Positions 418 to 37,657 of a stretch of 58,073 nucleotides of DNA are shown in pieces (the stretch's first letter is position 1; each line of letters begins with the position of its first letter). Under the pieces are notes generated by a model, which saw only the letters and a program-made list of their open reading frames with translations, was not told the DNA's origin and did not search any database. The translations under genes were made by a program, and so were the position numbers. This stretch comes from Streptomyces roseochromogenus subsp. oscitans DS 12.976 (lineage in GTDB: Bacteria > Actinomycetota > Actinomycetes > Streptomycetales > Streptomycetaceae), in the NCBI RefSeq assembly GCF_000497445.1, contig NZ_CM002285.1:8709659-8767731 (forward strand), written 5' to 3'.

Positions 418-434
418 TCTGACTACCTGTCAGA
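418..434. promoter_or_regulatory. Palindromic operator, TCTGAC-N5-GTCAGA
   Basis: Perfect six-base arms TCTGAC and GTCAGA flank a five-base spacer (TACCT) in the gap between the divergent acyl-CoA synthetase and crotonase genes. The form and position fit a TetR-family operator controlling both directions, as is common for acyl-CoA catabolism genes in actinobacteria. No regulator gene is visible in the window, so the binding protein is unknown. Confidence 0.55.
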
Positions 435-500
435 AAACCCTTGAAGTGCCTCCCCGCCTACTGCAACCTGTTCTCGTTCTCACCGAGGGGAGACAAGTCC

Positions 501-1301
501 ATGGGCGGGACGGAACACCTCACCGTGCGGCGTGAGGGCGCCACACTGGTGCTCACGCTCAACAGGCCCGACGCCAGGAACGCGCTCTCGCTGCCGATGC
601 TCGTCGGCCTGTACGACGGCTGGTTCGAGGCCGACGAGGACGACGAGATCCGCTCGATCGTGCTCACCGGTGCAGGCGGCTCCTTCTGCGCCGGAATGGA
701 CCTGAAGGCGCTGGCCGGGAACGGTATGCAGGGCGAGCACTACCGCGACCGGCTCAAGTCCGATCCCGACCTGCACTGGAAGGCGATGCTGCGCCACCAT
801 CGCCCCCGCAAACCGGTGATCGCCGCCGTCGAGGGGTACTGCGTCGCGGGCGGCACCGAGATCCTCCAGGGCACCGACATCCGGGTCGCGGGCGAGTCCG
901 CGACCTTCGGCCTGTTCGAGGTCAGGCGCGGCCTGTTCCCGATCGGCGGCTCCACCGTCCGGCTGCAACGGCAGATCCCGCGCACCCACGCCCTGGAGAT
1001 GCTGCTCACCGGACGGCCCTACAGCGCCCGGGAGGCCGCGGACATCGGCCTGATCGGCCATGTCGTCCCCGACGGCGCCGCGCTCGGCAAAGCGCTGGAG
1101 ATCGCGGAGCAGATCAACGCCTGCGGCCCGCTCGCCGTCGAGGCCGTCAAGGCGTCGTTGTACGAGACCGCCGAGATGACGGAGACCGACGGCCTCGCGG
1201 CCGAACTCGCGCGCGGCTGGCCGATCTTCGACACCGCCGACGCCAAGGAAGGCGCCCGCGCCTTCGCGGAGAAACGGCCCCCCGTCTACAAGCGCGCGTA
1301 G
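501..1301 (+). CDS. Enoyl-CoA hydratase/isomerase (crotonase family)
   Basis: A 266-residue crotonase-fold protein, normal family length. The oxyanion-hole motif CAGMDLK is at residues 63-69. The two general acid/base glutamates of enoyl-CoA hydratases appear to be kept, one in AGGTEIL and one in FGLFEVRRG, so hydratase activity is plausible. The ATG at 501 is preferred over in-frame starts upstream because a purine-rich GAGGGGAGA precedes it and homology begins there. It is probably the first gene of an operon with the DUF35 and thiolase-fold genes downstream and would hydrate an enoyl-CoA made from the acid activated by the divergent synthetase. The exact substrate is unknown. Confidence 0.88.
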   Translation: MGGTEHLTVRREGATLVLTLNRPDARNALSLPMLVGLYDGWFEADEDDEIRSIVLTGAGGSFCAGMDLKALAGNGMQGEHYRDRLKSDPDLHWKAMLRHHRPRKPVIAAVEGYCVAGGTEILQGTDIRVAGESATFGLFEVRRGLFPIGGSTVRLQRQIPRTHALEMLLTGRPYSAREAADIGLIGHVVPDGAALGKALEIAEQINACGPLAVEAVKASLYETAEMTETDGLAAELARGWPIFDTADAKEGARAFAEKRPPVYKRA

Positions 1302-30481: not shown

Positions 30482-30584
30482 GTACCTTTCAACAAAGTGA
30501 CGCGTGTAGAACCCTCAACCCGGCTCTACGCGCGCAGACTTGGCGCCGCACCGCCTCTCCCCACCCCTCATGGAGGTTCGTCGG

Positions 30585-32039
30585 ATGCTTGGATCCCGGA
30601 GATCCCGCCGCAGATTCACCACCGCCCTGGCCGGATTCGGACTGCTCCTCACCGGAGCCGCCGTCCAGATCGGCAGCGGCACCGCCGCACACGCGGCGAC
30701 CACGCACCGCGTCCTGTTCGACAACGCCCATGCAGAGACAGCCGGAAACGCCGACTGGATCATCTCCACCAGCCAGCCCGACCCGCTCGGCGAGAACGCC
30801 TCCCCGTCCGCCGAGACCGACTGGACCGGCGCCCTGTCCTCCTGGGGCGTGGCGCTGCAGAAGACCGGCGACTACAGCCTGAAGACGCTGCCGTCCGGCT
30901 CCAGCCTCAGCTACGGCGGCTCGTCCTCGACCGACCTGTCGAACTTCGACACGCTGGTCCTGCCGGAACCCAACACGCTGTTCACGAGCGCCGAGAAGAC
31001 GGCGATCATGAACTTCGTGAAGAACGGCGGCGGTCTGTTCATGATCTCCGACCACACGGGCTCGGACCGCAACAACGACGGGTACGACTCGGTCCAGATC
31101 CTCAACGATCTGATGACCAACAACAGCGTCGACTCGACGGACCCGTTCGGCTTCTCGATCGACTCGCTGAACATCTCCTCCGACCACCCGGCCGCGATCA
31201 ACGACAGCACCGACCCGGTGCTGCACGGCTCGTTCGGCACAGTCACCAAGAGCCTCATCGCCAACGGCACGACCGCCACCCTCAAGCCCGCCGACAACTC
31301 CTCCGTCAAGGGCCTGCTCTACCGCACCGGTTACTCCGGCAACACCGGCGCCTTCTTTCTGACCAGCGCCTTCGGTAGCGGCCGCGTCGCCTACTGGGGC
31401 GACAGCTCCCCGATCGACGACGGCACCGGTCAGGCGGGCAACACCCTGTACGACGGCTGGAACGACTCCAGTGCCACCAACGCGGCCCTCGCGCTCAACG
31501 CCACCGCCTGGCTGGCCGGTGCGGGCACCAGCAGCGGCGGGGGAGGCGGCGGTGGCGGCACCGGCACCTGCACCGCCGCCCAGCTCCTCGGCAACAACGG
31601 CTTCGAGTCCGGCAACACGGCGTGGAGCGCGTCCAGCGGGGTCATCACCAACTCGACCGGTGAGTCGGCTCATTCGGGCTCGTACTACGCCTGGCTCGAC
31701 GGCTACGGCACCGCCACCACCGACACCCTGTCCCAGGCGGTGACCATCCCGTCCGGCTGCTCGGCCACGCTGAACTTCTATCTGCACATCGACACGGCCG
31801 AGACCACCACCAGCACGGCCTACGACACCCTCAAGGTCCAGGTTCTCAACAGCTCGGGCTCGGTCCTCGGCACCCTGGCCACGTACTCGAACCTCAACGC
31901 GGCCTCCGGCTACACCCAGCGCAGCTTCGACCTCAGCGCTTACGCCGGGCAGACCGTCACGCTGAAGTTCACCGGCACCGAGGGCTCCCAGTACCAGACG
32001 TCGTTCGTCGTGGACGACACCGCGCTCAACGTGAGCTGA
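30585..32039 (+). CDS. Secreted protein with GATase-like N-domain and C-terminal jelly-roll domain
   Basis: 484 residues with a signal peptide ending AHAA (about 37). The N-terminal part (to about 310) looks like a DUF4350/GATase-like fold: [58 protein letters not shown]. After a Gly-rich linker (GGGGGGGGG) a C-terminal domain ([16 protein letters not shown]...[20 protein letters not shown]) resembles beta-sandwich modules found on Streptomyces secreted proteases. No catalytic residues are recognised. The ATG at 30585 follows GGAGG. A PHO-like box upstream hints at phosphate control. Confidence 0.7.
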
Positions 32040-34794: not shown

Positions 34795-34811
34795 GGCAGA
34801 GCTCCGGCCTT

Positions 34812-34837
34812 GTAAAGTTAGGAAACTTTACTAACTT
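34812..34837. promoter_or_regulatory. CsnR-type interlaced palindrome (csxA operator)
   Basis: Two overlapping palindromes: GTAAAGTT-AGGA-AACTTTAC (34812-34831) and AAGTTAG...CTAACTT (34815-34837). ROK repressors of chitosan genes (CsnR of S. lividans) are known to bind an A/T-rich palindrome of this kind. It covers the predicted transcription start of csxA. Confidence 0.75.
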
Positions 34838-34842
34838 GGCTC

Positions 34843-34871
34843 ACGCTAGGGCGCCGTACGGGTCGTGTCAA
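34843..34871 (-). promoter_or_regulatory. csxA promoter
   Basis: Read on the minus strand: TTGACA (34871-34866), a 17-bp spacer and TAGCGT (34848-34843), an excellent housekeeping promoter. Transcription would begin near 34836, inside the edge of the operator, so bound repressor would block initiation. Confidence 0.75.
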
Positions 34872-34901
34872 TGACCGTGGGCGGCCGGGACCTTGGACCG
34901 G

Positions 34902-36104
34902 TCAGGTTCCGGCCGCCCTGCGCTCGAACACCAGGTCCCGGGCCGTGTCCAGGGCCGTGGCCACCGCACCGAGCAGGACCGCGTCCTCGCCGAGCCGGCT
35001 CGGCGCGATCCGGGGGCGCAGTGGGGTGAGCGTGCGCACATGCTCCTGGACCGGACGCAGCAGCAGGTCGACGCTGTGGCCGACACCGCCGCCGAGCACC
35101 ACCAGGTCCGGGTCGAGCACGGCGGCGGCCGCCGCCACGGTGTGCGCGATCCGCTCGCCCTCCAGCTCCACCGCCCGCAGGGCGGCCGGATGGCCCTGCC
35201 GGGCCGCGTCGAAAACCGCCTTCGCCGTGAGCTGCCCCCTCATCCCGAACTCCCGGGCGGCCTCCACCACGGCCACCCCGGACACCGCGTCCTCCAGCCG
35301 CTCCGGCTTCTGCCGCCCCGGCCAGGGCAGGAAGCCGATCTCGCCGGCCAGCCCGTGTGCCCCGGTGAACAGCCGGCCCTCGCTGACGACGCCCATGCCG
35401 AGTCCGGTGCCGATCAGGATGTACGCGAACAGCCGGCTGCCCGTGCCGACGCCGTAGGTGTACTCGCCGAGCGCGGCGAGGTTGGCGTCGTTGTGCACCT
35501 CCAGCGGCACGCCCAGCTCCTCGCGCATCCGGTCGACGAGCCCGGCGCGCCCCCAGCCCGGCAGATGCATCGCGTACCGCACCCGCCGCTGCTGCGCGTC
35601 GTACACACCGGGCGTGCCGACCACCCCGTGCACCACCTCGGCCGGGTCCACGTCCGAGGTGGCGATCACCTGCCTGGCGGTGCCCACGACCAGGTCGGCG
35701 AGCGCGGCGGAGGCGCGGGCGCGGTTGCGTACATCGGCCCGGGCGACGAGCGTGCCGTCCAGGTCGGCCACCGCCACCCGCAGCCAGCCGCGCCCGATGT
35801 CCACCCCGAGCGCGTACCCGGCGGCCGGGTCGGGGGCGTACAGCACGGCGGTGCGCCCGCGCTCCGGGGTGTGGGTGCCGACCTCGTGCACCAGACCGGC
35901 TGTCTCCAGTGAGGCCAGCGCGCTGGAGACCGTCGGCTTCGACAGGCCGGTCTCCCGGGCCAGTTGGGCGCGCGAGGCGGCGCCGAGGGTGCGCAGCCGG
36001 TCCAGCAGCAGCCGCTCATTGGTGCTGCGCAGCCGCCGGCGGCTCCAGGGCTGTTCCTGCTGCTCCATGACATCACTGGCGGCCATCGCACCATTCTCAC
36101 GCAT
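34902..36104 (-). CDS. ROK-family transcriptional repressor (CsnR-like)
   Basis: 400 residues. The winged-helix domain (ERLLLDRLRTLGAASRAQLA, TGLSKPTVSSALASLETAGL) is followed by a ROK sugar-binding domain: YALGVDIGRGWLRVAVADLD, HNDANLAALGEYTYG, GLAGEIGFLPW. The zinc-binding CxCGxxGC motif of many ROK proteins is absent. Given its neighbours it probably senses chitosan oligomers or glucosamine derivatives and represses csxA and the divergent permease through the two matching operators. ATG at 36104 (alternative 36086); neither has a strong ribosome site. Confidence 0.85.
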   Translation of the reverse strand: MRENGAMAASDVMEQQEQPWSRRRLRSTNERLLLDRLRTLGAASRAQLARETGLSKPTVSSALASLETAGLVHEVGTHTPERGRTAVLYAPDPAAGYALGVDIGRGWLRVAVADLDGTLVARADVRNRARASAALADLVVGTARQVIATSDVDPAEVVHGVVGTPGVYDAQQRRVRYAMHLPGWGRAGLVDRMREELGVPLEVHNDANLAALGEYTYGVGTGSRLFAYILIGTGLGMGVVSEGRLFTGAHGLAGEIGFLPWPGRQKPERLEDAVSGVAVVEAAREFGMRGQLTAKAVFDAARQGHPAALRAVELEGERIAHTVAAAAAVLDPDLVVLGGGVGHSVDLLLRPVQEHVRTLTPLRPRIAPSRLGEDAVLLGAVATALDTARDLVFERRAAGT

Positions 36105-36117
36105 TCTCTGCGCATAC

Positions 36118-36146
36118 TTGACGCGGCTAGTAAGGCTCCTTAACTT
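36118..36146 (+). promoter_or_regulatory. Permease promoter
   Basis: TTGACG (36118-36123), a 17-bp spacer and TAACTT (36141-36146) fit a housekeeping promoter pointing to the APC permease. The operator at 36126-36149 fills its spacer and -10 box. Confidence 0.65.
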
Positions 36147-36149
36147 TAT
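36126..36149. promoter_or_regulatory. Second CsnR-type operator (ROK/permease gap)
   Basis: This 24-bp segment matches the reverse complement of the csxA operator (34812-34835) at 18 of 24 positions, sharing TAGTAA at the left and TAACTTTA at the right. It contains the palindrome TAAGG-CT-CCTTA. Located between the ROK gene and the permease gene, it could control both. Confidence 0.7.
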
Positions 36150-36223
36150 CCGCCAGCAGCCCGGCCCGGGCATGTCGCCCCGCAGACACGCGGCCCGCGC
36201 CCCCGTCGCGTTCAGGAGTCCCC

Positions 36224-37657
36224 ATGTCCGGTAGCCCGCCGCCCACAGGTGGTTTCGTCCGCCGTGTCGGCCTGTTCCAGGCCACGGCCATCAACATGAG
36301 CCAGATGTGCGGCATCGGCCCGTTCGTCACGATCCCACTGATGGTCGCCGCGTTCGGCGGTCCGCAGGCGGTCATCGGCTTTGTCGCGGGCGCCGTCCTC
36401 GCGCTGTGCGACGGACTGGTCTGGGCCGAGCTGGGCGCCTCGATGCCCGGCTCCGGCGGCAGTTACCTCTATCTGCGCCAGGCCTTCCAGTACCGCACGG
36501 GCCGGCTGATGCCGTTCCTGTTCGTGTGGACGGCGATGCTCTTCATCCCGCTGATCATGTCCACAGGTGTGGTCGGCTTCGTCCAATACCTGGGCTATCT
36601 GGCCCCGCATCTCGGCCAGACGGCGGGCGATCTGATCGGCCTCGGCGTCATCGTCCTGGTCGTGCTCCTGCTGTGGCGCGGCGTCGAGCACATTGCGCGG
36701 ATCACCGCCGTGATGTGGGCCGTGATGATCGCCTCGGTGCTCCTGGTGATCGTCGCCGCGGCCGGTGACTTCAGTCCGCATCTGGCCTTCACCTACCCGG
36801 CCGGCGCCTTCGATCTGACGAGCAACCACTTCTGGCTCGGCTTCGCCGGGGGCCTGACCATCGGCATCTACGACTACCTCGGCTACAACACCACCGCGTA
36901 CATGGGCGCCGAGATGAAGGACCCGGGCCGTACGCTGCCGCGCTCGATCCTCTTCTCCATCCTCGGCATCATGGCGATCTACCTGCTGCTGCAGATCGGC
37001 ACCCTGGGCGTCGTCGACTGGCACCGGATGACCGACCCGCATGACATCGCCTCGACCTCGGTCGCCTCGGCGGTGCTGGAGAAGACCTGGGGCAAGGGCC
37101 CCGCCGACGTGGTGACCGTGTTCATCCTCGTCACCGCGTTCGCCTCGGTGTTCACCGGACTGCTGGGCGGCTCCCGCGTCCCCTACGACGCCGCCCGCGA
37201 CCGTGTCTTCTTCCGGCCGTACGAGAAGCTGCACCCCAGGCACCGCTTCCCGACGCTGGGCCTCGCGACCATGGGCGTGATCACCGCCGTAGGCTTCCTG
37301 ATCGGCCGGCACACCGACCTTGCGACTCTGATCCAGTTGCTCACCACGGTCATGGTGATCGTCCAGGCGCTCGCCCAGATCGTCGCCCTGAGCGTTCTGC
37401 GCAAGCGGCAGCCGGAGCTGCGCCGGCCGTACCGGATGTGGCTGCATCCGCTGCCGAGCATCCTCGCGTTCGCCGGCTGGTGCGTGATCTACGGCTACGC
37501 CGACGAGAACTCCCCGGGCCGCCACCCCATCGAGTGGTCCCTGGCCTGGCTGGCCCTCGGCTGCGTCGCCTTCGTCGTGTGGGCACGGCTGGAGAAGGTC
37601 TGGCCGTTCGGCCGGAAGGAGATCACCGAGGAGTACAAGGTCCTTGAGATGAGCTAG
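36224..37657 (+). CDS. APC-superfamily permease
   Basis: 477 residues with about 12 membrane helices. The first helix region (QATAINMSQMCGIGPFVTIP) has the unwound GIGPF motif of amino acid-polyamine-organocation transporters; GASMPGSGGSYLYLRQAF and GIYDYLGYNTTAYMGAEMKD are also typical. Family members usually carry amino acids or amines by proton symport. Its promoter carries the operator shared with csxA, so it may import glucosamine or an amino sugar released from chitosan; that is inference. The ATG at 36224 follows AGGAG. Confidence 0.87.
   Translation: MSGSPPPTGGFVRRVGLFQATAINMSQMCGIGPFVTIPLMVAAFGGPQAVIGFVAGAVLALCDGLVWAELGASMPGSGGSYLYLRQAFQYRTGRLMPFLFVWTAMLFIPLIMSTGVVGFVQYLGYLAPHLGQTAGDLIGLGVIVLVVLLLWRGVEHIARITAVMWAVMIASVLLVIVAAAGDFSPHLAFTYPAGAFDLTSNHFWLGFAGGLTIGIYDYLGYNTTAYMGAEMKDPGRTLPRSILFSILGIMAIYLLLQIGTLGVVDWHRMTDPHDIASTSVASAVLEKTWGKGPADVVTVFILVTAFASVFTGLLGGSRVPYDAARDRVFFRPYEKLHPRHRFPTLGLATMGVITAVGFLIGRHTDLATLIQLLTTVMVIVQALAQIVALSVLRKRQPELRRPYRMWLHPLPSILAFAGWCVIYGYADENSPGRHPIEWSLAWLALGCVAFVVWARLEKVWPFGRKEITEEYKVLEMS

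Follow-up and report, generated by a model that had tools for sequence, protein, structure and literature searches.

A conserved switch in many Streptomyces appears to turn on a chitosan-cutting enzyme and an amino-acid-type transporter together

Does one switch control a chitosan-cutting enzyme and an amino-acid-type transporter in Streptomyces? A locus of Streptomyces roseochromogenus subsp. oscitans DS 12.976 raises this question. We analyzed a window of 58,073 nucleotides (positions 8709659–8767731 of a contig of 9.66 Mb; the genome totals 9.78 Mb), in which a ROK repressor gene lies between a csxA gene and an APC-superfamily permease gene. A sequence-only reading of this window had proposed that one 24-bp operator made of two overlapping palindromes serves both csxA and the permease gene. 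A GH2 chitosan enzyme with a ROK-type box is already published. The passages of PMC6097792 that we draw on describe CsnR boxes in GH2 genes, give the consensus AGGAAANTTTCCT, state that binding is affected by chitosan oligomers, most of all by the dimer, and single out box positions 5 and 9 as those that matter most in their test. A passage of PMC3048496 describes a chitosanase gene whose start site is covered by a palindrome. A paralogous repressor, a hybrid site and an APC importer would be the new parts of this known kind of system. Neither an APC glucosamine importer nor a second chitosan ROK regulator was found in open-licence PubMed Central titles and abstract starts, which is weak evidence of absence.

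The mechanism that we propose is as follows. The local ROK protein, for which we propose the name CsxR, would repress csxA and the divergent permease gene, and perhaps its own gene. It would bind a dyad of the form TAGTAAAG-N8-CTTTACTA over the csxA start region and over the spacer and −10 box of the permease promoter. It would be released by a chitosan-derived amino-sugar signal, for which glucosamine or a short oligomer is the most likely candidate. Outside the cell, CsxA would cleave glucosamine from chitosan, and the free amino sugar would enter through the permease. CsnR would probably repress csxA too, and the permease would answer to the local ROK protein. Such a two-site chitosan/glucosamine regulon is the best explanation of the locus, and we consider it probable.

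Genes and paired sites at the locus

The features of the locus are listed in Table 1. The csxA product aligned with PDB 2VZS, the CsxA of Amycolatopsis orientalis, over residues 17–903 (E = 0). It has both features expected of a GH2 exo-β-D-glucosaminidase, the Ig_GlcNase domain and the two acidic residues at the positions of Asp469 and Glu541 of 2VZS. We take these two residues of 2VZS to be its catalytic pair. The Amycolatopsis enzyme is longer (1032 aa vs 904 aa), and the window protein lacks the stretch beyond 2VZS residue 898. The N-terminus of the window CsxA resembles a signal peptide by eye, and the enzyme is probably secreted. The ROK gene starts at 36104 or 36086, and those of its near relatives that carry names are from Streptomyces. 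Its product combines an N-terminal winged helix (MarR_2, 31.4 bits; cut-off 27) with a ROK domain, as a ROK-family repressor does. The permease belongs to the APC superfamily, with AA_permease_2 matching across the entire protein (165.8 bits; cut-off 27).

Table 1. Positions of genes, promoters and sites, in window coordinates
Feature	Position	Strand	Basis
csxA, GH2 exo-β-D-glucosaminidase, 904 aa	32080..34794	−	Pfam Ig_GlcNase 114.8 bits; PDB 2VZS match
csxA-side site TAGTAAAG-N8-CTTTACAA	34810..34833	−	sequence, conservation, shuffles
CsnR-box core AGGAAACTTTACT	34820..34832		1 mismatch to AGGAAANTTTCCT; within the 19-bp palindrome 34817–34835
csxA promoter TTGACA-N17-TAGCGT	34843..34871	−	sequence; TTGACA kept in 14/21 aligned rows
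ROK repressor, CsnR paralog	34902..36104	−	Pfam ROK 151 bits and winged helix
permease promoter TTGACG-N17-TAACTT	36118..36146	+	sequence, conservation
permease-side site TAGTAAGG-N8-CTTTATCC	36128..36151	+	sequence, conservation, shuffles
APC-superfamily permease, 477 aa, proposed glucosamine importer	36224..37657	+	Pfam AA_permease_2

Both promoters named by the sequence-only reading are present. The csxA promoter has its boxes at 34866–34871 (TTGACA, minus strand) and 34843–34848 (TAGCGT), and the permease promoter at 36118–36123 (TTGACG) and 36141–36146 (TAACTT). Both N17 spacers were counted by hand. No promoter was assigned to the ROK gene itself at the locus. Since the ROK gene shares the minus strand with csxA, the csxA site sits between them. 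The second site is between the divergent ROK and permease genes. A gene at 30540–32039, convergent with csxA, encodes a secreted-looking protein with a MAM-like domain and has no copy of the site. It may be part of the neighbourhood, because a relative was found in 63 of the 78 ROK loci described below. The GNAT gene behind the permease was found in 22 of these 78 loci and was dropped as an operon partner.

On the csxA strand, the proposed operator at 34812–34837 reads AAGTTAGTAAAGTTTCCTAACTTTAC. It spans 26 bp, so the earlier length of 24 bp did not stand, whereas the overlapping palindromes did. A 9-N1-9 dyad lies at 34817–34835 (8 of 9 pairs), interlaced with a perfect 7-N4-7 dyad at 34813–34830 that widens to an 8-N8-8 dyad at 34810–34833 (7 of 8 pairs). 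The interlaced pattern noticed earlier is a CsnR-type palindrome, GTTAGTAAAGTTTCCTAAC, overlaid on the longer dyad. The window holds 25, 13 and 70 instances of the 9-N1-9, 7-N4-7 and 8-N8-8 classes, respectively. Dyads of this kind are far from unique here, and the symmetry alone is little proof.

The likeness between the two sites is more telling. The reverse complement of the csxA site had been reported to recur at 36126–36149, and the match is exactly 18 of 24 bases, the best in the window apart from the csxA site itself. For comparison, the csxA site matches its own palindrome at 19 of 24 bases. When the whole window was dinucleotide-shuffled 200 times, the top identity was 16 (8 of the 200), and 18 of 24 was never reached. 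A joint pattern, TAGTAARGYTYCYTAACTTTA, was built from both sites and is hence fitted to them. At ≤3 mismatches it had exactly two matches in the 9.78-Mb genome, both in the window, and the reversed-pattern control had none. A genome scan for further copies, which had been suggested earlier, thus returned only these two sites.

The permease-side copy alone is a poor dyad. A perfect dyad, TAGTAAAG-N8-CTTTACTA, lies inside the permease promoter TTGACG-N17-TAACTT of three genomes from another family (G639, G905 and G777). Because it is perfect there and can be read in the window sites, we take the 8-N8-8 dyad as the putative operator of this ROK branch. The csxA site is then a CsnR box (one mismatch) over the longer dyad of the paralog, and the permease site keeps mainly the longer dyad. 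The proposal of one operator for both genes therefore holds as far as related sites go; the two are not identical, because the csxA copy also holds the CsnR box.

Conservation of the sites with their genes

Relatives of the ROK gene were collected from named genomes. They numbered 78, comprising 75 from Streptomyces and three distant ones (Kribbella, Nocardia). In 74 of the 75 Streptomyces loci, a permease match of >300 bits adjoins the ROK gene; the remaining one, L178, has a 43-residue piece. The permease-side site was found at ≤3 mismatches in all 75. Of the 75, 68 have csxA, whole or as a piece, and the csxA-side site (≤1 mismatch) occurs in the same 68. In the other seven, the ROK–permease pair stands without csxA, and none of them has the csxA-side site.

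In alignments, TTGACG and TTAACTTTATC were invariant in the 16 rows chosen for the permease side (the window and L027–L041; L042–L046 were omitted as more distant or cut off). On the csxA side, 14 of 21 aligned rows (the window and L027–L039) have the site with TTGACA. Among the remaining rows, L040 (as L103) has the site further upstream, L043 has a CsnR-like site in its place, and csxA was not seen within L041, L042 and L044–L046.

The genus was then searched with a shorter form of the joint pattern at ≤1 mismatch. It matched in 38 of 295 genomes, and the control gave one match in 295. In 37 of the 38, the site neighbours ROK, csxA or the permease (all 30 loci that were fetched and seven of the eight others); the exception is G159, whose site is an exact CsnR core. 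csxA itself was found in 48 of the 295 genomes, with the ROK gene adjacent in 27. The csxA-side site was present in 25 of these 27 at ≤2 mismatches in 21 bases; the two misses are G168 (four mismatches) and G045 (a CsnR-like site). In five of the 48, csxA lies beside the permease and there is no ROK gene. The last 16 have neither neighbour in the stretch that was read, which covers the upstream side and starts from csxA ends extrapolated from partial matches. None of these 16 has the site (≤2 mismatches) or the CsnR core (≤1 mismatch) there. By site and gene-order conservation, csxA, the ROK gene and the permease gene would thus act as one co-regulated unit, the compact regulon that had been proposed, and co-regulation by the local ROK protein is very likely.

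Several loci have decayed genes. In L131 and L157 (G182 / Streptomyces sp. CME 23), csxA is down to a piece matching residues 836–903, and the csxA-side site is intact. The best segment of the csxA match in L205 is limited to residues 166–379, and in L178 and L065 (G286) the permease is down to its 43-residue piece (residues 429–471 in L065); the sites persist in all three. G083, one of the 16 csxA genomes without these neighbours, has elsewhere a ROK-gene relative (75%) whose frame is interrupted by a stop (G083:C1:390818-392002, L042), and no csxA or permease match was found within 1.5 kb of it. Three of the seven loci without csxA (L171, L182 and L220) have a 1391-aa open frame behind the ROK gene. 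In L182 (7461–11633) it is of the GH35 β-galactosidase type by Pfam, and the L171 and L220 frames are alike at the N-terminus. This protein was rejected as a stand-in for csxA, because the L182 protein scored 83.7 bits against the exo-glucosaminidase cut-off of 1500.

The local ROK protein and CsnR

The local system resembles CsnR and its box (csnA and csnREFGHK of Streptomyces lividans/coelicolor), in which a ROK repressor also meets a palindromic, A/T-rich site over the start of a chitosan gene, and the same core occurs at the window csxA with one mismatch. It differs in that the window ROK protein is a paralog, only 39% identical, with a longer 8-N8-8 dyad, and sits beside csxA and an APC permease instead of an ABC transporter cluster. 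The CsnR-like gene of the same genome is at 6394028–6395212. Its box differs from the wider pattern by one mismatch, and the gene for a solute-binding protein lies downstream. With 39% identity to the window ROK protein and this better candidate at hand, we rejected the idea that the window protein is CsnR itself. Exact CsnR cores precede two chitosanase genes elsewhere in the genome, one of GH46 and one of GH75.

The two window sites relate to the CsnR consensus differently. At the csxA promoter, it is matched with one mismatch, and positions 5 and 9 are intact. At the permease promoter, 5 of the 12 specified positions differ by hand comparison, and the permease site was absent among the 11 listings (six places) returned by the genome scan at ≤2 mismatches to TAGGAAANTTTMCTA. 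It retains positions 5 and 9, so CsnR might also read the permease site. Given the CsnR box in the csxA copy and the separate CsnR-like gene, two repressors may act on csxA and one on the permease gene. This double control of csxA is the weakest part of the proposal, and we hold the chances for and against it to be about equal.

The recognition helices of the ROK proteins are consistent with two site types. The helix is SKPTVSSALA in the window, G639 and G905 and SKPTASQLLA in the CsnR-like protein. G615, with a CsnR-type site at its permease, has SKPTVGQALL. The agreement of helix and site type is a correlation across a few lineages.

The five genomes with csxA beside the permease and no ROK gene bear on the same point. 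Three of them (G003, G181 and G102) retain 21 of 21 bases of the csxA site, despite diverged flanks in G003 and in G181/G102. The site is decayed in G164 and G282. A permease-type site at ≤1 mismatch was found in none of the five. The nearest remaining ROK protein is CsnR in four of them, and G102 gave none at E 1e-45. This pattern is consistent with CsnR alone reading the csxA site. The split of roles between the repressors is not clean, because these genomes also keep the outer arm, which should be dispensable for CsnR. A quick, unrooted tree built from N-terminal parts of csxA has them at two separate positions, with G003 (support 91) at one and G282/G164/G181/G102 (support 84) at the other. 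It suggests two independent losses of the ROK gene, and no more than suggests them, because the starred branches force just one change.

The permease, its substrate and the competing explanations

The permease reaches none of the 16 listed NCBIfam cut-offs, and its substrate was approached through the neighbours of its relatives. A permease match at E 1e-100 or better was found in 11 of 394 genomes in a sample of the class and in 4 of 301 genomes of the other family, two of these being new. In G615, a ROK repressor (47%) followed by NagB is divergent from the permease, and this NagB is above both cut-offs (352.1 vs 326; 249.2 vs 236.9). In G639, G905 and G777, the genes for the permease, a ROK-family kinase and an SIS protein stand one after another, and a ROK repressor (62%) is divergent from them. 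G144 has the permease, a kinase (48% to the G639 kinase), an SIS protein and a ROK repressor (41%), and G045 has csxA, ROK, the permease and a kinase (47%). The kinases, that of G639 included, and the SIS proteins reach no NCBIfam cut-off; the top score is NagB-II for the G639 SIS protein (159.7; cut-off 430) and GlmS for that of G144 (220.9; cut-off 381), followed by NagB-II (204.6). Three further relatives (G634, G670 and G382) have no recognised amino-sugar gene nearby. These neighbours of distant permease–ROK pairs, NagB in one case and a ROK-family kinase, sometimes joined by a NagB-II/GlmS-related protein, in others, point to glucosamine. Through other lineages, they independently link the permease to amino-sugar catabolism, in support of the connection to chitosan use that the sequence-only reading had made. 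Among the subset of genes scanned in the permease loci, no NagA-type deacetylase was recognised, so glucosamine would be favoured over GlcNAc. Glucosamine transport by the permease is, in our estimate, reasonably likely.

The permease differs from known carriers of its superfamily. It aligned over its full length with 6f2g and 6f34, which we take to be BasC and GkApcT, respectively. In TM1, it lacks the GxGIF mark of APC amino-acid carriers, which is present in the four solved carriers, and has G[IV]GPF. The same motif was read in each of the 15 homolog loci that were checked and in 119 of 120 database matches, the database matches all being ≥86% identical to the query. A close permease (88–89%) is present in S. 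avermitilis assemblies. Unlike BasC and GkApcT, it has relatives that lie near amino-sugar catabolism genes. FrlA is also alike, as an APC carrier for a sugar amine; the Frl system includes kinase and SIS-domain partners, to which the neighbours above are analogous. We rejected the identification as FrlA, because the permease scored 101.9 bits against a cut-off of 800 and the SIS partners scored to NagB-II/GlmS, not FrlB.

If the proposal is true, a dedicated APC importer would bridge the gap from a probably secreted exo-glucosaminidase to the cell, a substrate could be given to permeases that now bear amino-acid labels, and glucosamine would gain a new uptake route. The hybrid site would be a natural case in which a duplicated repressor acquires a separate operator and the old operator continues to be read. 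Against the need for such an importer, a passage of PMC6520443 credits CsnEFG, an oligomer transporter, with uptake of monomeric glucosamine in actinobacteria at a lower scale. A broader picture, in which the actinobacterial APC branch marked by G[IV]GPF imports glucosamine, a CsnR-derived ROK protein has its own longer operator, and oligomer sensing (CsnR) and monomer sensing (the paralog) converge on the interlaced csxA site, is tentative, and we give it somewhat less than even chances.

Could the two sites be alike by chance or through a common promoter element? TAACTT in the common motif is the predicted −10 box of the permease promoter, and dyads of such sizes number 13 to 70 in the window. 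At csxA, however, TAACTT sits downstream of the promoter and is conserved all the same, the 18/24 match was unequalled in the shuffles, and the presence of the site tracks the genes (68/68 with csxA, 0/7 without). With conservation, genome scan and shuffles in agreement, we rejected this origin as extremely improbable. A more serious alternative is that the csxA site is a plain CsnR box, csxA belongs to the known CsnR regulon, and the local ROK protein has only the permease and itself as targets, the likeness of the sites reflecting shared ancestry of ROK operators. Its strength is that the csxA core is one position off the consensus, that GH2 genes carry CsnR boxes in the passages of PMC6097792, that the site is kept in three of five loci without the local ROK gene, where CsnR is the nearest ROK protein in four of five, and that the G045 csxA has a CsnR-like site although a local ROK gene is present. 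Yet the outer arm of the csxA site matches the permease site and is conserved together with the csxA site, and none of the 16 csxA genes without a ROK–permease neighbour upstream has a CsnR core at ≤1 mismatch. CsnR is nevertheless widespread: the search protein that picked out the CsnR-like gene matched at E 1e-70 or better in 40 of the 43 genomes tested (all but G102 with 1420 contigs, G168 with contamination 6 and G183 with 540 contigs), a set that overlaps the 16 only in G083. We consider the plain CsnR box unlikely.

Co-regulation could also be real and the cargo another one, an amino acid or a fructoselysine-type sugar-amine conjugate. The permease is an APC carrier, some of its database relatives are labelled 'fructoselysine transporter' or 'amino acid transporter', and the FrlA model does give 101.9 bits, but far below its cut-off of 800. 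The neighbours score far higher to NagB, NagB-II and GlmS than to fructoselysine deglycase (159.7 and 204.6 vs 30.4 and 36.2 bits), and TM1 departs from that of the four solved carriers in 15 of 15 loci. A different cargo is therefore doubtful, though less so than the plain CsnR box, and glucosamine remains the preferred substrate.

Exact CsnR cores were also met at two places apart from these genes. One, at L009:1501-1515 in the genome of the window, has no chitosan gene adjacent; the nearest likely reader is a secreted-looking frame at 423–1166 (minus strand), >300 bp off and with no Pfam match. The other is the site AAGTTAGGAAACTTTCCTAAC of G159 (L132, near 5523), which lies just upstream of a predicted secreted protein and is a candidate CsnR target.
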